Assembly: GCF_018320785.1 (NCBI RefSeq) | Contig: NC_054869.1 | Location: forward strand, 41,009,789 to 41,073,788 | Reading direction: 5' to 3' | From: Cheilinus undulatus | Taxonomy: Eukaryota; Chordata; Actinopteri; Labriformes; Labridae | Length of the DNA stretch: 64,000 nt | In this document: piece by piece, positions 30,127 through 47,639 of the stretch | How positions within the stretch are numbered: position 1 is the first letter of the stretch | Layout of the letters: each line of letters begins with the position of its first letter | Translations under genes and position numbers: made by a program | The notes under the pieces: model-generated | Told to the model about the DNA's origin: nothing | Seen by the model: the letters and a program-made list of their open reading frames with translations, nothing else | Database searches by the model: none

Positions 30127-33100
30127 TCAGTAGTAAATACAGCGCGTGTGGTGTATGGGAATGTGGGCCATCTCTTTGTGGTGCTGCTTGGCATACGGCC
30201 ACAGGTAGAAGTCAATGATTGCCGAATTGACGCTGCAGGTCTGTCCGTCTCTCTCCTGCACCATCTTACACAGACACTGTTTGATCTGCTCCACAGACCA
30301 GATCGAACAACCCCGGATCTCCACCTCTCTCCTGTCTCCTGAGCTCAGCAGCTCGCCTGGGAGAAATACGAAACAAACAGATAACAAACAGAGCAACAAG
30401 AGCTGGCTCTTTTTTAACCTGATACAGTTCTTTATTATGAAAGCACACACTCCTGTCTCACCTTTCTTCAGTGCTTGCATCAGTGCATCAGAATATCGAA
30501 GAGCCCCGAGGTAGACGAGAGCCTGAGGCACCCGGTAGTCTGCAAACATGGTCAGCCAGTCCATGTTGATGAGGTCTCCTTCACCTCGGGCTGCCATGAC
30601 ACCCCAGAAATCTGCCACCAGGATCTGAGCACGCTTGTAGAATGAGATTCTCCTGCCCTGAAACAAACACAAACTGCTCTAAATGCTGGATTGTCTGCTT
30701 ATTTATTCTGTTCTCCATCACTTTGTGTGCTTAAAGGCAAAGATTACATGAAAGCTACGACGTGTATGTCGTTAGTTCAACAACCGGGGAGTTTTTGAGT
30801 AGAGTTTTTGCAGTGCATTTACTATGCTATACTTTAAAACCTCATCCTCAAGTCCAAAGTATTGACACCTTCTTATACTTGAAGGCAGTGTGGCATGTTA
30901 AAATAAATATGCTTTATCCTATTTAAATCCAGCAGCTGCACCAGTTCCTGCAAATAATCAAACACATCAACACCATCACAAGTAAATGAACTGTAGGTCT
31001 TGATATTTGACATCTAACCAAGTTCTACACCATTTCCAGTTTTTCACATGCCAACACATGCTGCCACCACCACGATTCAGTGTTGGGATGGTTTTGGACA
31101 GATAATGATGGTGCCTGGTTTCCTCCAGACATCATGTTTAGGACTGGGGCCAAACAGACCAATTTTGGTTTCATCAGACCAGAGAATCTTGTTCCTCCTA
31201 GTCTGAGAGTCTTTCAGGTATTTTTTGAAAACTTCAACTAAGGAGAGGCTTCTGTCTAACCACTCTACCATGGATGGCTGCAGTGATGGTTGTCCTTCTG
31301 GAACCTCGTTCCAACCCTTACACAGGATATCTGTAGCTCAGTGACTATCGGGGTCTTGGTCACCTCTCTTACTAAGGCTCTTTTCCCCCAATTGCTCAGT
31401 TTGGGGGATGAAAACCTCTTAGAAGAGTCCTGGTTGTGCAAAACTGTCTTCCATTTGAGAATTACAGTGGCCAGTGTGCTCTTGAGAACCTTCAGCACAG
31501 CGGATTTTTTTCAGATCTGTGCCTTGCAACAATCCTGGCAGTTCTTCAGCTCATGGTGTGGTTTTTGCTCTGATATGCATTGTCAGTTGTGAGGCCTTCT
31601 TTAGAGAGTTGTGTGCCTTTCTAAATCATGTCCAATTAAATTGTTTCACCACAGGCGTACTTCAATCAAGGAGTAGAAACATCTCAGTGAAGATCAAGAG
31701 AAATGGGAGGCACCTGCAGCTAAATTTCAAGTGTTGTTGCAAAGGATCTGAATATTGTCTCAATGTGATATTCCAATTTTTCTTTTAAATGAATTTGCAG
31801 TAATTTCTAGAATTCTGTTTTCACTCTGTCATTATGGGGTACCGAGTCTAGATTAAGGAGAGAAAAAATGAACGATTGAGGCATCAGGTTACAAGATTAC
31901 AAAATTGAAAAAAAGTGAAGGAGGTCTGAATACTCTCTGAATGTACTGTATATTCAAACACATAAGCATCATGCAATGCTGTGTTTGCCCAGCAGAGGGA
32001 GCTCTCATATCACAATTTATCTCAACTTTTCCAGTTGCAGATAAATAATGCAACACATACCCTTTTAAATATACTTTTAAGATGTTTCATACCTCTTTCT
32101 TACTTCATGGTTTTATATATTCATTTTATATTAAACTAAAGAGGAGATTTATTGACCAATACATCTGAAAAATAAAGATTAAGCCATGACTTGACTGAAG
32201 CCTGTTATATTTCTGCAAATTAGATTGATATGTCCTTTAAAGGCCATGTACTCAAGCAATAAGTGTTCAAAGTGTGTACAATTTTGAATTATTAATGTCA
32301 CTGTTTACTGTTACTAGTAAAAATGGAATTATATTGATCTGTTTCAATATCACTGCAACAAAATAATGAACCCTATGGCATCTTATTTCATCTGAATTAT
32401 CTCGTTCCTCGTCCAGAGGACGTGTGGTGTCTGCAGATGTTTTTACTTTCTAACTCTATTCCTATAGGTGAGAGCAAAGCAGACACAAAAAACTCACTAT
32501 CTGTCTGCATATTTGTGCAGAGATATGAACATGTTCATAAGTTCTCAAACATCTGACTTTTTAGAAGAAAATAATGTCTTACCAATTTGTTTCCCCATTT
32601 ATCATTAACAGCTCTCGCTCTCCTTACTTCCTCCCTGCATCTCTCGACTACTGCTCTCTTTTTTTGGCTCATGACAACTGTGGGTTAAAAATATGACGGT
32701 AGCGCTTTGGTTTTTCAGAAGCTTTGGTATTTACTGTTAAGATCAAATAAAATTAGAGGAATTGTCTCATTTTAAAGCATGTGTTACTGAAAAGTACAGA
32801 AGAACTGAACATTTAGCCAACTTAATTAGGATATGAATCTCAAATCTTTGGAGCTTGGACTTATTTTATGTTGTTGGTCTATGATGTTTGGGTTCATCAC
32901 TGTTGGGGTTTTATAGTTGTAGTTTGGGTGTGTTCTTTCTGGTATTTGGTGCCTTTGCGTTTGTTTTCCTGCCTCTTGTAAAGGGGCAACACAAATACTA
33001 TTATTATACATATCTTGTCTGCAACCAAGATTATAATAATTACCATTTCATGTTTTACATCAGACTACTTAAATCAAACCAGTTGAAACTTGTTGTGAAG

Positions 33101-34766
33101 TAAAAATATAAACATACATTTTTGGATTGGATTTATATTGCAAATATTTACTTTAAAAAGTAAGTTAAAATAAAATAAAATCCTGAAAAATTGCAGTTTT
33201 CGCCCTTCTCTTACTCTAACCTCATATGTAGCCTCGTCCCTGTAGGATGGGATCTTCTCAACGATGAGCTCCACCATCTTCTGGGCGTCGTTCCCAGCTT
33301 TGCTGATAAAACTACGGAAGCTTCCACCGTTTTCCAACAGAACACGCCCCCCTTCAGTCAGCGCCTTGTGAGACAGGTTCAGCACACCATGCATTCAAAA
33401 AAAGACCTTTCAATCAAACATTAAATCCTTGTAATACAGAGAACGCTGTTAAGCCAGAAATATGGCTCTGGTAGAAATGATGTTAGATGTCAAAGGAGCT
33501 CAGGCTCATACTGAGGTAGGCAGTCACATTTAACAGATGATCAGGAGCCAGATCAGATAGCAGTGAACAATTTCATTTTTATCTGCTAATGCAACGATGG
33601 ATGTCCTTTGCAGAGGCAATTAAACAAATTCCCTTCATATGTTGACAAAAGACTTAATTCTACAGCAGTCAAAGTTCCTACATCTATCAGGAATCACACA
33701 CTTTATCTCACAGTTATCTTTATATCAAATAAATCTACAGCTGTTGCATCACATCGACCCCACAGTACAACGGAAATACAGTGACATTAGGTTATTATAC
33801 AAGACATCCCAGCCTCTTCGAATAAATGTAAGCTTCAATTTTGTTTTTCCTAATTGAAAATAAACTAAACAGAGAGGAGGCTGATAAAATATATAAACTA
33901 AGGTTGCCAGCATTAATGCATTTATGGCAATGCAGATGAGGTCCATAATTAATGCACTCATTTAAAAAAGGGTATTACTCACATGCTTTATTTGTCCCTT
34001 TCAGCATTGTCTCATCTCCTCACAGCCACAGTGATATAAAATAAGTCCACCACCACTCCCCCAATATCTCACTTATCTTAAAAACATTACAGACAGCACA
34101 TCAGACAATTAAAAAGTCATCTGCACCTTCTTTCATCAAACATTGACCCTTTCAGTGTTCCCTTATTTCTATTCAATCCATAGCAAGTTTTTCTGTGGTT
34201 GAGTTCATCCACCTGAAGTTCCTTATTTTCTTTCAAAAGCCCTGTGTTATCATCGCGTACTTATAAAGAGAATCTGTGAGTACCTTGTGTCGCTCCTGAA
34301 GCATTGGCATGGCGGTTTGGTTGTCTGATCGCAGGACGTGTCCCAGCTCCTCCTCACTCATCTGAGAGAAGTACTTCGGATCAGTGATCGGGACACCTGT
34401 AGGCAGGAATGGGACAAGGAATCACATTCTTAAAATTTTGCTGCCATCAGTGTCTCAATCAAAACAACAAAAAAGATGACATGTAAGGCTGTACTGCTCA
34501 ATTCTAACCACAACTGCTTAATTTTTTTTTTTTTAATTGAGCACTCAGTTCAATAAAACTACACATTTCAAGGCAATTTACCAGGACTGTCAAATGATCA
34601 AATGTAGGGGGGCAGGTGGCCTAGTGGTTGAAGGCGCTCCCCGTGTACGCGGGCGGCCTGGGTTCGAATCCAGCCTGAGGCCCTTTACCGTATGTCTCTC
34701 CCCCACTCTTGACCCTGTTTCCGACTCTATCCACTGTCCTCCTCTATCTAATAAAGGCCCAAAAAT

Positions 34767-34799
<33 letters not shown>

Positions 34800-37700
34800 G
34801 AAAGATCAAATGTACTAATAGCGGTTAATCTCCATTTTGGTCATATTTTTATATTTCCACTATGTAGCATTGTGATTAATGAATGAACGCTGACAGTGCT
34901 GCTGCTGCTACCTCTGTTTTGCAGAGGAGCATGGATGGACAGAAACCATCGACAGGTGTGCAGGAGGAATTTCGAAATAAAAGTATAGCTTAAATGTGAC
35001 TGTGTCAATCCATGTTCTGACTTTCTATTGATCTGGTTGGGGATAATCAATCAACCAATCAATGTATCAATACATATCTATCGTTACACCCCTAGTATTG
35101 GCTGAAATTGATTTGTAAATATTGGCCTATCTGATATAATCAAAATTCCAATGTCGTACAATCCTAGTTTTGGTATTTTTGGATACTATAGATTTTAACT
35201 ATAAAGAGGTTGTAGCATTAAAAACATGTGATATTGAAAAATGATTAAAGTATCAGCATTTATGGCAACATCCTGTCATCATCAGGCCGGTAATATTTTT
35301 TTTTTAATCATTATAAAAAGATTAATTTTGTGACAATTTACACTGCAGATGTTGAACCTTGCAACCCCTACTGCTTCTCAAGTTTTTTTCTTCAATAACA
35401 TTGTGTTTACTTTTATTAATGTGTTGTTCTTTTCAGTCACTTCCTGTTGCTCACCACTCTTACCGCTGCAAAGACAGTGAGTTTCACACTCAGTTTCTTT
35501 TATTGTTTTTCTGTTGTGTTATACAAAACCTTTTACTAAATTTTGACTAAATTAAGCTATGGGATAAATGCAGAGAAGTAAAGAAAAATTACTTGAAGTT
35601 AAAAAAGAAACAGCTGGAAGGCTTTATACTGACAAAAAAGAAATACTTAAGATAAAGAGAAACAAAGGATTCAAGGCCACTAACTCGCCAAGTTTTGTCG
35701 TCATAATGTAAAGGCTTGAATAAAACTCCACCGGTTCTAACAAGACATTCCAAAGACACAGTTTGTTCTGATCTCATGCTGTCACCCCTCAAGTCTCTAC
35801 CTGTGCTTTTCTTAAAGAATCTCTTGTAAATCAAAAAGGCCACAACGACCACACATTGAGAGCACTATTCCATATGAGACATAAGTGATTCATATCCGAA
35901 GTCATTCACGCTAATTATGGGTGAATCAAAGGCACACGCAGAGCTACAAGCAATTTCCCAGCAGTCCAAGTTCAAGTAAAGGGCACTTACACAATAATTG
36001 GTAATTGCAGTGCACAACAAAAGCTTTCAGAAAAAAAGGGAACAAAAAGACATAAAAAGGGCCTATACGTATGTTTATTCTCTAGCAGTGAACCTGCTAA
36101 AAAGAGGACGAAAGGAAAAGTTGTCAGGAAACACTGTATCAATCAAAGAATGACCTTCATATTTCTTTATAATTTTGACATTTTTTTGTCAACACAACAG
36201 TGATTTGAGAAGAATCTGCTTTCTCCTCCTACTCCAGCACCAAGGGCTTTTTATGTCTGTGGCTATAAAAAGAGGAAAAGTGTTGAAAACATATGTACAG
36301 TGCCTTTAAAAAGTATTCACCCCTCTGGATGTTTTACCCTTTTATTGATTTTAGAAATCAATCATGGCTGATATAATTTGGCTTAAAAAAAGATCCCTAA
36401 AACCTTTTTAATGCCAAAGTAAAAACAAATTTCTACAAAGTAATGTCAATTATATAAAAATATGCAATACCAAGAAAGTGATTCCATAAATATTCACCCC
36501 ATTCAAGTCAGTATTTAGTAGAGTCACCTTTGGTTGCAATCACAGCACTGAGTCTGTGTTGATAGGTCTAAATCAGGCTTGCATATCTGGACACTGTAAT
36601 TTTACTCAAATTTTCTCTTCTAAACTGCTCAAGCTCTGTCAGGTTGTACAAGAATCTGGTATGAACAGCCCTTTTCAAGTTCTGCCACAAATTCTCTATT
36701 GTATTGACGTCTAGGCTCTGACCCTACCACTCCAGAACATTCACCTTGTTGTCTTTTAACCATTTCTATGTAGCTTTCGCTGTATGCATCAGGTTATTGT
36801 CTTGCTGGAAAATAAATTTTCTCCCAAGCCGTAGTTCTCTTGCAGAGTGAATAAGATTGTCCTCCTGGATTTTTCTATATTTTGACACCCTCTACCTTTA
36901 CAAGCCTTCCAGGCAGCATGGTGCTGCCACCACCGTGCTTCACAGTGGGGATGGTGTGCTTGTGGTGTTGTGCAGTGTTTGGTGTCCACCAAAGAATAGC
37001 ATCTTGTCTGATGGCCAAAATGCACCATTTCTGACTCATCAGACCAAAGAACTTTCTTCCACTTGACCATGGAGTCTCTCACATGCCTTTCAGTGAACTC
37101 TAATGAAGATTTAATGAGTTTTCTTTAACAGTGGCTTTCTCTTTGCTACTCTGCCATAAAGCTTTGACTGGTGAAGAACCCAGGCAACAGTTGTTGTATG
37201 CAGAGTCTCTCACATCTCAGTTGCTGAGGCATGTTACTCCTTTAGAGTAGTCAGAGGTGTCTTGGTGGCCTCCCTCACTCGTCTCCTTCTTGCACGGTCC
37301 CTCGGTTTGTGAGGGCAGCCTGATCTAGACAGATTTACACATGCACCATATTCCTTAATTTCTTGATGATGGATTTGACTGAACTCTGAGGGATGTTCAG
37401 TGCTTTTAAATTATTTTTAGTATCCATCCCCTGAGTTATACTTTTCAATAAACTTTTTCTCTGAGTTGCTTAGAGTGTTCTTTTGTCTTCATGGTGCAAT
37501 GGATGCCAGGAATACTGATTAACCAGTGACTGGATCTTCCGAGCACAAGTGTCTTTATACTACGATCACTTGAAACAAATTCACTGCACTCAGGTAATCC
37601 CTAACTTGACACACCAGATGGATGTGTTTCACATGCAATTTATATCAAATTTGCAATATGAGCAATAATAATTGCAGTTATTTTTTAATCTTTCTGCCCT

Positions 37701-41840: not shown

Positions 41841-42786
41841 CAGTAAATTTTCTGGATAAAAGATGGACAGATTATATTTTAAAAAAGCACAGTAACACCT
41901 CTGAGATGATATGGAGTCTTGTTAATTGAAAAGAACCTCTCTACTGAGTCAGGGAGTGTTTTTGATTTTGCGTTGGACATTATTTTGTAGTAAAAAAAAT
42001 CATAAAATTTCATAACATGATAATTTTGAAAAAGTGATCTGTTGGAGCATAACAGTCAGCCTTATTGATGATAGGTATGGCTCTTTTTTGCAATTTTACT
42101 GTTGGATTTAAGGTTGTTTTAAAGGCGGAGCCCCACAATTCCAAACAATTATTGAGTAATACATTAAATGCAGAGCCTTAGAATCTAATATATTTCTGGA
42201 TTTCTACAAGATTGCAACTGACTTTTAAATTTTCCCTTTAATGAATTCAATAATGTTTCCATGTTGACTTTTGGTCAGTTACAACCCCACAGAATTTGGT
42301 GTCAAAAACTCTTTCAATGTCAACATTACATATTTTTTAATATATCCATCACTTTCCTTTAGATTCCCAAAAAAACATAAATTTTGTCTTCTTAATATTT
42401 AGAGATAATTAATTGACATGAGTTGAAGGCATACAGTGTCCTACTTGGTGATTCATTCGTTTTTTTTTTCAGTAAGGACACGCCTGATAATACCTTTTCA
42501 TAAAATAAAAAAAACTAAATTGGAAGGAATTTGCATGACCTTTTATTACGACAACCACTAACGCATTCGAGCAGAAGTCGCCAGTTAACACGGCCACTTT
42601 CAAAATCGGAACACCTGGATAGGCTAACTGTATCTGATAGCTGCCTTTGGGCATTGACAGAAACGAACAGAGGCAGTGAATAGCTTTTAAACAATAATGT
42701 ATTGACATAAGCTTTCTGACAGAAAGTTTCTGTTACACAACATTTTTATTTGATCCGTAAATAAACACAAGTTACATTGTACTTAC

Positions 42787-43351
42787 CGTCAAATGCAGAG
42801 AAAGTTTACTCTACATCAAACTCGTGCAGCTTTTTTATTACACTCCGTTATTTCCGGGTTTGAACCACCAATCAGTGTCTGTTGTCTTGTAATCGTCACA
42901 ATCAGAAAGACCAATCATAATAAGACAGGAGAGGACCCCGGAAAGCAAAAGGCAAACATTTTGAAAAAAGCCGAACTCTTTATTTTAGCGGTCTTCCATC
43001 TGGATTAGCATGGTTCCACAGGTTGTTGCATTTTTGAAGCTTTAGCGTTTCTTGATCAGGAAGTGGCCATTGCTTTAGTTTATCGTAGTTTAGATTCATT
43101 TACTTAAAGACCAATGGCCCGTCCGTAGTTTCTCTCCTCTCCCTTTAGTTTTCCCCTCAAGACGTCGATACAAGGATTGACCAAGTATGCAAAACCTATT
43201 TTTAACTGTCCCGTTTCTATAAAGTAGGATAAACATTATAATTGTATCATGCAGAGGGGGGCAGTGGCGCACTTTTCCGTGTACAACCTGCCGGAATTTC
43301 AGTAGAAGAAGAAAAGATGTGTCACTCAGCTTCCTGTTAGCGTACGCGAAA
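42787..43351. promoter_or_regulatory. Shared promoter region between qng1 and the THAP gene
   Basis: A strong minus-strand donor (GTAAGT) ends a non-coding qng1 exon at 42787, and the THAP gene start codon is at 43352 on the plus strand. About 560 bp therefore hold both 5' ends, arranged head to head. No TATA box is evident next to either gene. The bidirectional promoter is inferred from geometry. Confidence 0.5.
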
Positions 43352-46300
43352 ATGGCTGAGACAAGGTCTAAATGTCACTGCAGTGTGCCTCTTTGCACTT
43401 CTAACAAACAGAAACAACCTTACTTAAGCTTCCATGGCTTCCCTAGGGACGAAGAGGAAAGGAGGAAGTGGGTCCAAGCGATTCGCAGGGAGGAAGGTCC
43501 GGATTTTAAGATACTACGAGGGAGTACATTCGTGTGTAGTCGCCATTTCGCTGAAGAAGACTACAGTCCTGTTAGCATCGTAGGGGATCGCAAACGGCTA
43601 AAAGCAGGGGTTGTTCCGTGGTGTTTTCAGTGGAATAACTGGGGGATGTCCCAAGGAGAGCCTGTTAATGACAAAAACAAAGTTTCTCTAACAAAACGCA
43701 AGAATGAGGAGGTCCCCCCTGCCCTGCTGGATCATAACTACTCCGGTTTTTCTGCTACAGGTATGATGATGTAGCAGTGTCTAGTAGTATCCTTAGGAGA
43801 CCAGATTCATGTTTGTTTACTGTAGGGGACATTAATCTTCAAAGAATATTCCTTCATGCTCAAGTAAAAGCACAGATACTTCAGTTAAAATGTACTTAAG
43901 TAGAAGTAAAAGTATTGGTCTATAAATCTACTCAAGTAAAAGTAAAAACAAGTAGATATTCAAAGTTTTCTGAGTAGCTACTTTAGATACCCAAGAAGAG
44001 GCGTCTTGTACAGTGAAATATGAAACTTTCTGAATGTGTAATAACAACAAGAGAACATGAATTTCCAACCACGTTGGTTATTTAATGGTGTGACTTCACC
44101 TGAAGTGAAATGTGGACCTATTCTCTCTCTGTGTTCTACTGACAGTCGTGTTGTCAAAGCCAAACTTTTGGCCCGTTTAGTGTTGTTGTCAGGAAGCTTG
44201 GACTTCCCCATTTTTGCTTTTAATGCATCATTTTTTTACTCATTGTTTGGCACTTTTTAAAATATGGTGCAGTTCAATATTCCCCCTAAAATAAACTTAG
44301 GTGAAAGTAAAATTACTGATTTTAAAAGTACTCAAGAGGTCAATTCAATTACAGTACTTTGAGTAAATACAATAAGTTAAGTTTATGAAAACCAAGAGAT
44401 TTACATAATTTTGTCAAATCTAAATTGGCTCCATTCCAGAGTTTACCCAAATGATAGAAATACATCTCCTGTTCTTCAACTTTTAGTTTGTTTTTTTGTT
44501 TGTTTGTTTTGTTTGTTTGTTTGTTTGTTTTTTTCCGTATATATACAAAAACCTCTAGGCTAAACCATACTGACTCTTCTAAATTGAAAATAAATGTGCA
44601 GACTCCGGGAGTGTCTTTGATTTTTCTCCGAATATTGTTTGCATCATTTTGTAGTAAAACAAGTCATAAAATGCCATGAAATGGGAAATTGAATGGATTT
44701 ATTAAAAAAAAAAGAAAAACGTGTAGATGCCAGGTCTAATGCTAAATAGACTGTTTATGAAAGCATCACCAACAATACTATGATTTTTGACTGCAAGATA
44801 ATCTATTTTAAATTTTAAGATTTTTATTTATGTATTTAATTTAGGAGCATTAGAAGGCCATTAAAAGGAAAGACAAATATGAAGAGGATCTAATAATTTC
44901 AAGAAAAAAATACATTTTTGAGATTGTAAAGTTGTAAATTCACTTAAACTCAAACATAGATTTTTAGGTTGAAAAATTGTAGTTAAGCAACTTTTTAACC
45001 TAGTCTTGTTTCAGTTTTTTTTATAGTTACAAAAGTCATAAATCCTGACTTTGTAAACTAAAAAAAAATGTTAGTTTATAATGTCATAAATTTATAACAT
45101 TATAAAGTCACAAATGTACAAGTAACCAAACTGATAACAGTAGTTAGAAAGCGTCAGTTTAGCCCATGTTCTTTTTCTAAGTTTAGATCAGTGTGATTAT
45201 TCTGGATTCAAATTATGATTATTTTCCTTTTTGCTTAGTCCCAGTAAAAAATATCATTTGATTACATTGTGCAGGACTTGTATAAGGAAAACTGCTTCAT
45301 CTGGTATGGTAAATGTGAAAATCGTCTGTTTTCAACTTTATAATCTCAACAGGCCATATATTCCTGAAATATATGGCCTGTTGAACTTCAGAATTTGTAT
45401 TTTTTCCTCATGAAATATGACTTTAAATGTAAAACATGTGGGTTTTTTTTTCTCATGAATTATGACTTTTAAACGTCATTTTTTTTCTCATAAATTATTA
45501 CTTTTAACCTTTTTTCTTTTTTTTTTCTAATAAAGTTCTGATTTTAAAGTCTGGATTTTTTTTTTGCTTTTCTCAACAAAGTGTGACTGTTAAACTTAAG
45601 AATTATGTGTGTTTTTTTAAAAATACAATTATGACTTTAAGAAATTAAGGGTTATTTTTCTCTTTAAGTATGACTTGGAAAAACATACAAAATAATGTCT
45701 TTTAAACTGAAAAATTGAGAGTTTTTTACCCATCAAATCATTACTTTTAATCCTAAACATTGTGGGGGGTTTCATATAAAATTTTGACTTTTAAGTTATT
45801 AAAATTAGAGCATTGTTCTACAAAATTTGGACTTTTGAACCAGAAAAGCTGGCCATTATCATTGTAAATTTCAGACTTTTTAAATTGAAATTGTTTTTTT
45901 TTTTTTTTTTTTTTTGGGGGGGGGGGGGGCTAAATTTTAAACTTGAAAATTTTGGAGTTTTCCTCATTAAAATTATGACTTTATAGTTTTTTTTTGTAAG
46001 TTTCATGTCAACAGATTGTCTTTATATTTAATTTCTTGGATTGGTCATAGTGTATGCTTTCATTTATCACCTCCCATTTTGTTGCCCCTCTCACAGGTAA
46101 ACCTGATGCTGCACCTTCACTCACAGAAGAGGAAGTTCAGGAGCCTGACATGAAGAAAGCATGCCTGGAAGTGGATCATTTGTTTTTCAACAAGTTTTGT
46201 GTCTCAGATGAGGAAATATGCTTTCATACAAGATTTCCTTCTAGAGACATCTTCTATTCTTTCTGGCGAGCGATTGAACCATCAGCATATTTGCTGGAGA

Positions 46301-47148
46301 ACTGGTCCAAAGCGCAGAAAGCAGGCCAAGTCGCTGCACTCTCTACACTCAAACCACAGCAGCACAGGTTGCAGTTGGTTGATGAGTTTTTCTTGTACTG
46401 TTGCTGTGTTGCTGCAGGCTTACCAGAGAAGGAACTAGCTGAGAATTTTGAGGTGGGGTTATTCACAGTCCGTCGTGTTGTCACAACTTGGGCGAATTAC
46501 CTCTACCTGCTTCTCAGCTCCACACCCATCTGGATGAGCAGAAATCAAGTGCAGTCAACCATGCCGCTCAAATTCAAGCGGTACAGTCCAGACGTGAGAG
46601 TGATGATCAGCTGTATGGAGGTACAGTGCCAAAGCTCATCGCTCGCTCTCCAGTCAGAGGGGTTGTCAAGCGGCAAAAAAGCTACAACCTTCAAGGGGTT
46701 AATAGGCATCGCCCCATGCGGTGCAGTGACATTTGTGTCCAACCTGTACTCCAGCTCGATCTCAGACGGCGAGCTCTCTGAACACTGTGGGATCTTTGAC
46801 CTGCTGGAGCCCGGCGATGCCTGCATCACAGGCAAAGGGACCACCATTGAGAAAGTGGTGGCTGAACACGGGGCGACGCTGGTCATTACCCCCTTAGAAT
46901 CACCAGCGGAGTTCAGCAGGGACGACGAGCTGAAAACACAAGCCATATCTCAGCTCCAAATCCTTATAAGAAGAGTGATCAGCAGAGTCAGAGAGTTTCA
47001 TATCTGGGACAGTCCTGTTCCTCTGACTCTGGCTGGGGTCGTCAACCAGCTGTGGACCAACTGCTGCCTGATGACTAACTTTCAGGGATCGCATGACTTG
47101 AGAGGCCACATACCTGTAGCTTTAGAGATGATGACAGGACAGTGGTAG
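43352..47148 (+). CDS. THAP zinc finger fused to a degenerate DDE_Tnp_4 transposase domain (probably domesticated)
   Basis: Two exons, 43352-43760 and 46097-47148, joined by a GTATGA donor and a TCTCACAG acceptor, make 486 residues. Residues 1-95 form a THAP C2CH finger: C10 and C15 (CSVPLC), SFHGFP, invariant W40, C62 and H65 (FVCSRHF), then a VPWCF motif near AVPTIF. From about residue 230 comes a helix-turn-helix (AENFEVGLFTVRRVV) and a DDE_Tnp_4 fold with its usual landmarks FKGLIGIAP.GAVTFVS and FDLLEPGD. The catalytic Asp-Asp-Glu appear lost: Ser308 (MISCME where IDCTE is usual), Gly382 (TGKGT for ADKGF) and Arg428 (IRRVIS for VERAIE). No terminal repeats flank it. The frame is intact, so selection for a non-transposase role, perhaps DNA binding, is likely. 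An in-frame ATG at 43319 would add 11 residues. Confidence 0.85.
43855..44360. repeat. Interspersed repeat in the THAP gene intron
   Basis: It begins with repeated ACTCAAGTAAAAGTA-type motifs and ends GTACTCAAGAGG..TACTTTGAGTAAAT. This pattern is common in fish DNA-transposon derivatives. No coding capacity was seen. Confidence 0.45.
44488..44535. repeat. (TTTG)n microsatellite
   Basis: Short tract of GTTTGTTT units in the THAP gene intron. Confidence 0.7.
45395..45995. repeat. AT-rich tandem array with a T22/G14 homopolymer junction
   Basis: Units resembling TTTTCTCATAAATTATGACTTTTAAAC recur about every 50 bp. At 45894-45929 a run of about 22 T passes directly into about 14 G. It ends about 100 bp before the acceptor of THAP exon 2. 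Confidence 0.55.
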
Positions 47149-47639
47149 AGTCAAACAGCACGTTTACTTGTGCTGTATTTAAGAACATTTTGACATAGTA
47201 CTTCTATTTAGTTTCATTTATACTTGTTCATAGGGCTGCAACGATCAATCAGTGAATTAAGTAATTGCCAGATGTTCTGATAAGCAATTGATTACAATTT
47301 TGTTAGGGGAAAATAGTCAAAATTGTTATTTCATCTTAATTTAGAATTTTTTACTCCTTTGCAACAGTAAAATGAATGTTTTTGGGTTTTGGACAAAAGG
47401 ATAAGGTTACAGACAGGTTTTGCATTACTAAGGATATGTGAGGATGCCATCGATGTTTTAGGAAAGAAAGATTGAAATTTTTCACCCTTTTCTACAGAAG
47501 TGTATTGCCCTATAAAATATTTTTTGCCCCCCCCCCCAGTGAAATTTGTTCTCTGTTTCTCTGAGTTCGTGACATCACGATCTCTGGATTGTTGCATTTT
47601 TTTTTCTTTTTTATAGGTTGTTTTTTGGCTTTTTTTTGC

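Follow-up and report, generated by a model that had tools for sequence, protein, structure and literature searches.

Second careers of transposases related to the one considered here are already known. The gene in question lies in a 64,000-nucleotide (nt) stretch of contig NC_054869.1 of Cheilinus undulatus (hereafter the window, the whole of the DNA analysed), joins a THAP finger to a DDE_Tnp_4 domain and is, in our judgement, quite likely an ISL2EU-group transposase (PIF/Harbinger-like superfamily) that is catalytically dead and has been domesticated, and which would work through its THAP finger and the remaining scaffold.

The nearest characterised precedent is ALP1 of Arabidopsis, a domesticated Harbinger transposase that carries DGA instead of DDE and associates with Polycomb repressive complex 2 (PMC4671723). 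As with the window gene, a transposase-derived protein was retained after loss of the triad, but ALP1 is a plant gene of PIF/Harbinger origin, its function is known genetically, its relatives are found across land plants and, in the accessible part of its description, no THAP finger is reported. HARBI1 is a host gene conserved from teleosts to mammals, the partner of which is a separate Myb-like protein, NAIF1 (PMC9710019). The window gene is likewise a vertebrate gene derived from this superfamily, HARBI1 differing in its PIF/Harbinger origin and in its interaction with that separate protein. HARBI1 is not known to have a THAP finger. THAP9 belongs to a different transposase superfamily. Like the window gene, THAP9 and the P-element-derived THAP genes unite a THAP finger and an RNase-H-like transposase domain in one protein, but THAP9 is reported to cleave DNA through conserved acidic residues (PMC8230255). 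Domestication of Harbinger transposases in insects has been judged by synteny, by the lack of related copies and ends, and by the ratio of non-synonymous to synonymous substitution (dN/dS, omega) (PMC9710019); by these standards the window gene has no near-identical copy or recognisable end and gives mixed dN/dS values; unlike in those cases, its genome still contains many more distant relatives. The published marks of ISL2EU elements (PHIS/Harbinger-like superfamily) are a THAP-DDE transposase paired with YqaJ, an AT target duplication and ends starting with GG (PMC4482050, PMC9179366). A search of titles and abstracts found no host gene domesticated from ISL2EU, which is weak evidence of absence as subscription journals are mostly outside that coverage.

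Gene structure and the catalytic triad

The features of the gene are as follows.

43352..43760, plus strand: exon 1, with the ATG and the THAP finger (residues 1-136 plus the first base of Gly137)
43379..43627, plus strand: THAP domain, residues 10-92 (Pfam, 63.8 bits against a cut-off of 23.9), with C10, C15, C62 and H65
43761..46096, plus strand: predicted GT-AG intron of 2,336 bases, placed by splice-site fit, with a dispersed repeat at approximately 43859-44379
46097..47148, plus strand: exon 2, with a linker, a remnant of the coiled-coil-like region of its relatives and the dead DDE_Tnp_4 domain (stop codon, 47146-47148)
46609..47079, plus strand: DDE_Tnp_4 domain, residues 308-464 (Pfam, 67.9 bits against a cut-off of 24.8)
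46609..46611, plus strand: codon AGC for Ser308, which aligns with the first catalytic Asp of D/D/E relatives
46831..46833, plus strand: codon GGC for Gly382, which aligns with the second catalytic Asp of these relatives
46969..46971, plus strand: codon AGA for Arg428, which aligns with the catalytic Glu of these relatives

When joined, exons 43352-43760 and 46097-47148 encode 486 amino acids and a stop codon, with zero internal stops. A reading made earlier from the DNA letters only (the sequence-only reading) had proposed this unbroken two-exon frame, together with a THAP finger and a DDE_Tnp_4 domain, and both proposals are borne out, the two domains scoring above their Pfam cut-offs. The predicted splice sites (donor AG/GTATGA, acceptor CACAG/G, the slash marking the junction) split a glycine codon at a position identical to that of the junction inferred for the paralogue on contig C1 (donor CCAG/GTATGT, with AACAG before the second exon). 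Comparison with the PDB matched the finger to the solved fingers of THAP2, THAP11 and THAP1, the Cys/His pattern being kept; at the box position it reads GVVPWCF, which we take to stand where the AVPTIF-type box of THAP fingers is expected. Exon 2 gave no match against PDB sequences, and its transposase fold is assigned from the sequence profile only; a single-sequence structure model of this exon, built with no alignment, had a mean predicted local distance difference test score (pLDDT) of 34.9 and was set aside, as was a non-significant match of the protein to a Pfam GntR/helix-turn-helix family (E 0.2). No relatives were found among plasmid and viral-contig collections.

The triad was compared on one frame in 25 chosen copies from the same genome, 16 of which have a residue at all three positions (labels such as C1 and C3 denote contigs of this genome, and L-labels the loci that were opened). 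This alignment sets the Asp, Asp and Glu of the relatives exactly at Ser308, Gly382 and Arg428, as the sequence-only reading had claimed; the five residues on either side of each site are free of alignment gaps, and no alignment was obtained that places D/D/E elsewhere in the domain, a result which that reading had named as one that would overturn it. The corresponding motifs in active-type copies and in the window are IIDCTE and ISCMEV, MADKGF and ITGKGT, and VERAIRRVK and IRRVISRVR, respectively. Twelve of the 16 fully readable copies are D/D/E, the others being C1a (D/D/Q), the broken C6 copy (D/N/E), C4b (D/N/T) and the window gene (S/G/R). Outside the 25-copy alignment, the triad could be read in six further copies: four are D/D/E, including a second copy at the C6 locus, and the other two are G/D/E and D/N/E. 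Thus, among the copies examined, only the window gene is devoid of all three catalytic residues. An apparent Arg at the third position of the broken C9 copy (L047) was read across a deletion, has no residue there in the 25-copy alignment and was left uncounted.

The statement that the scaffold is well kept stands for most of it, 57 of the 70 columns showing no variation among five other open copies being still kept in the window protein, but not for the motifs surrounding the triad, which are degraded as well. Judged by its sequence, the gene is a real, catalytically dead transposase derivative; non-conservative triad changes on a kept fold, the mark by which an ALP1-like dead transposase is recognised, are found in it.

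Copies in the same genome and the ISL2EU origin

Copy number rests on a protein search of the fish's own genome with exon 2, which gave 91 matches; all 90 candidates were scored and 30 were opened as loci. The window copy matches itself at 100%; the next long matches are those on C1 (63%) and C3 (51-52%) and the broken copy on C6, which reaches 66% over part of its length, while short fragments reach up to 68%. Multiple near-identical copies had been named as a finding that would speak against domestication; among the 91 matches there is none, no other long match exceeding 66% amino acid identity. The closest paralogue, C1a (C1:2997918-3008776; L009, L017/L020), is open in both exons, with an intron of approximately 9 kb, and a broken D/D/E duplicate (L010) starts approximately 12 kb past it. 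In the D/D/E relative at C3:47127862-47129662 (L011/L021), both the THAP exon and the DDE exon are open. A different subfamily is represented by L015 (C21) and L016 (C4), two D/D/E copies with an open DDE exon; because they are 88-91% identical over several kilobases, they were possibly mobile more recently than the window lineage.

The relatives have a second reading frame downstream of the transposase gene and on the opposite strand, an open piece of which, in L052, was identified as YqaJ (Pfam, 44.8 bits). This piece matches 13 other opened loci (E up to 0.05; some overlapping, two weak), including that of the C3 D/D/E copy, in which the YqaJ partner lies approximately 1.6 kb downstream and is recognisable, although interrupted by stops as read. 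L017, which covers approximately 5 kb downstream of the C1a gene, has no YqaJ match; a piece of YqaJ approximately 10 kb beyond that gene is beside the broken duplicate (L010, 4144-4467) and may belong to either. A left end is also shared, in that four dispersed copies with differing flanks start at TAT followed by GGG and GAGATTTGTCTC, with a fifth copy resembling them; the element end seen in these siblings is the left end only, a matching right end and a target duplication not being seen there. C11, C9, C1c, C8, C21b and C4c have all lost most of the catalytic domain through one internal deletion (approx. 110-285 in the exon-2 alignment) and are, by this shared lesion, a family of non-autonomous derivatives, as expected of a formerly mobile family. 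The loci of the deletion copies (L043, L047, L049, L050, L051 and L052) are dispersed, and L043, L050, L051 and L052 begin at the shared element end.

An ISL2EU source for the window gene, which the sequence-only reading had put forward as likely, is therefore supported, because the relatives have both the YqaJ partner open reading frame (ORF) and the shared element end. The gene is like ISL2EU in its own THAP and DDE_Tnp_4 domains and, through its genome relatives, in the YqaJ ORF and the AT-then-GGG left end (PMC4482050). It differs from a mobile ISL2EU element in having no D/D/E triad, no GG-starting inverted repeats with an AT duplication, no recognisable end and no near-identical copy; nor was a YqaJ partner found in the 64-kb window, three peptides derived from relatives (the L052 piece and two from the same stretch) giving no tblastn match at E 0.05.

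Maintenance of the open frame and selection

The 25 chosen copies were placed in a protein tree (LG+G4, midpoint root), in which the window gene belongs to a 13-member clade, set apart by a branch with a support of 91. Its nested position among the siblings, with node support of only 56-82, is contradicted by synonymous divergence (dS), so that clade membership alone was used. Exon 2 is broken by stops or frame changes in 11 of the 13 copies and open in the window gene and C1a, so the frame that the sequence-only reading called intact stayed open while most of its clade decayed. Between the window copy and 10 of the 12 siblings (C1c and C4c being omitted from the table), dS is 0.68-1.24, and that of sibling pairs with at least 50 codons is 0.05-0.62, except for one 51-codon pair at 1.13; with a stricter alignment of C1b, the values are 0.76 to the window copy and 0.19 to C1a. 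Because the window copy is the farthest in this table, the comparison shows, for these aligned codons, that its lineage split earlier than the sibling copies.

A frameshift-aware count gave six lesions in C1b, six in C6 and two in C20, and zero in the window gene, C1a and C3a. The 14 sibling lesions arose over approximately 0.45 neutral substitutions per site (codon-model branch lengths), and at this rate the lesion-free exon 2 allows neutral drift of at most approximately 0.10 per site at the 95% level (0.11 with a hand count of 12 lesions). In simulations with neutral substitution of 0.13 per site, frameshifts being left out, the whole frame stayed free of stops in 0.2% of the runs. As the window branch is approximately 0.42-0.48 neutral substitutions per site long, well above the drift allowed, the host, we infer, would have maintained the frame at this locus over most of the branch. 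Upkeep through continued mobility is disfavoured because close sister copies and recognisable ends would then be expected, and none were found. The main ground for a probable host retention is a frame that stayed open over approximately 0.4-0.5 neutral substitutions per site with no close sisters.

In a four-copy codon model, the dN/dS of the window branch was 0.365 and that of the background 0.134 (p = 0.003 versus 1, p = 0.0002 versus background). The whole path fitted without an outgroup gave 0.315 (p = 2e-11; path range 0.25-0.32), and the background omega was 0.08-0.13 in the fits with an outgroup and 0.19 without it. In these fits, constraint on the window gene is relaxed relative to the transposon. 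The profile of a domesticated transposase attributed to the gene thus holds for the dead triad, the lack of a near-identical copy and the open frame; purifying selection is seen along the path, and is less secure for the window branch itself, where a six-copy set raises omega to 0.42 (p = 0.06).

Weighing of the interpretations

Several observations count against domestication. The six-copy value just given is not significantly below 1, so that the result of the branch test varies with the copy set, and the broken siblings have an omega of 0.53 (trimmed around gaps and stops, and probably biased low); because of these two values, substitutions alone do not prove, in this alignment, constraint after the loss of catalysis. 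The outgroup is saturated, the length of its branch reaching the bound in some of the fits, and C1a, with Gln for Glu, has an omega of 0.62 on a short branch that is not significantly constrained (p = 0.2-0.4). Nor do the broken siblings represent independent events, since six share one deletion and C1b and C13b have lesions at the same positions. Changes in otherwise invariant columns are concentrated weakly around the triad (5 of 13 columns within 6 residues of it and 8 of 57 elsewhere; p = 0.056), a pattern given no weight here. CpG richness was rejected as a sign of a host promoter, broken copies having CpG-rich 5' ends too, with no discrimination between the two. Finally, a marginal inverted repeat, with 17 of 20 positions matching and a longest perfect run of 11, surrounds the gene:

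43187..43206, plus strand: left arm of the marginal 20-nt inverted repeat, a possible relic end or chance match
47406..47425, minus strand: right arm of the same repeat, likewise a possible relic end or chance match

It is unlike the end of the sibling elements and was equalled in 3 of 200 Markov shuffles (its 11-nt perfect run in 17 of 200). The claim that the gene has no terminal repeats thus stands as far as the sibling element end is concerned, for which a search of the window that allowed up to 5 mismatches in 22 gave no hit, but is qualified by this pair.

The gene might instead be a dying relic, selected as a mobile transposase until recently, which then lost catalysis and drifts with no stop or frameshift met as yet. 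The omega of the window branch (0.37-0.42), above background and near that of the broken siblings, would suit such a history, as would the degraded triad and adjoining motifs; however, recent mobility should have left sister copies, whereas the nearest long match is at 63-66%, the element end and YqaJ ORF of the siblings were not found in the window, and the lesion rate calibrated on the siblings permits too little neutral drift (at most approx. 0.10-0.11 per site), so that we regard this history as rather unlikely. The P-element KP protein is a self-derived blocker of transposition. By analogy, the dead protein may have been kept because its THAP finger binds ISL2EU ends and blocks transposition: the finger is intact, omega in exon 1 of the window branch is low (0.08, a value that does not differ significantly from 1; p = 0.12, saturated), and open D/D/E copies of other subfamilies are present in the genome as possible targets. 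Nothing in the present data shows binding to element ends, however, and the window lineage split well before the siblings, the ends of which it may therefore not recognise; such a role appears distinctly improbable, more so than recent decay. A still-active nuclease with its acidic residues elsewhere in the fold finds no evidence in its favour, the triad columns being set by the 63%-identical D/D/Q and the 52%-identical D/D/E paralogues with the gap-free alignment around them, and can be given hardly any weight. It is also conceivable that the window gene (S/G/R) and the C1 paralogue (D/D/Q) form a pair of host genes domesticated from ISL2EU, which would have lost catalysis separately, kept their THAP fingers and open frames, and acted as DNA-binding repressors that helped to extinguish the subfamily to which the broken copies belong; we consider this scenario rather unlikely as well.

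Domestication of a dead ISL2EU transposase is the interpretation we prefer. The host would have kept the gene as a nuclear DNA-binding protein, the THAP finger of which would recognise DNA, while the RNase-H-like domain, deprived of the residues that bind the catalytic metals and unable to cut, may persist as an interaction scaffold; its likeliest role would be that of a sequence-specific transcription regulator or of a DNA-binding chromatin adaptor. If this is true, ISL2EU transposons, in which a THAP finger and a transposase are already combined, can act, like Harbinger, as a source of ready-made DNA-binding host genes, and such an ISL2EU-derived host gene has arisen here with all three catalytic residues gone.

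Flanking genes and other features

Two stretches on the minus strand, 31077-31510 and 36300-37600, presumably resemble a decayed Tc1/mariner transposase, a label that Pfam does not support, the two pieces tested giving no match there. ARAGORN predicts no tRNA in the window; by eye, 34605-34790 is like a tRNA-derived short interspersed repeat with a poly-A end.

The neighbours named by the sequence-only reading, qng1 and hnrnpk, are confirmed by their domains: pieces of qng1 lie upstream of the THAP gene on the minus strand (Pfam Q_salvage), and hnrnpk lies downstream, also on the minus strand (KH domain; best PDB match hnRNP K, E 8.9e-32). The first exon of qng1, on the minus strand, seems to be non-coding and to end at 42786 with the donor GTAAGT, in a head-to-head arrangement with the THAP gene. 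At 42400-43650, the observed/expected CpG ratio is 0.69-0.91, with a window median of 0.30, and this stretch is a possible two-way promoter shared by qng1 and the THAP gene.

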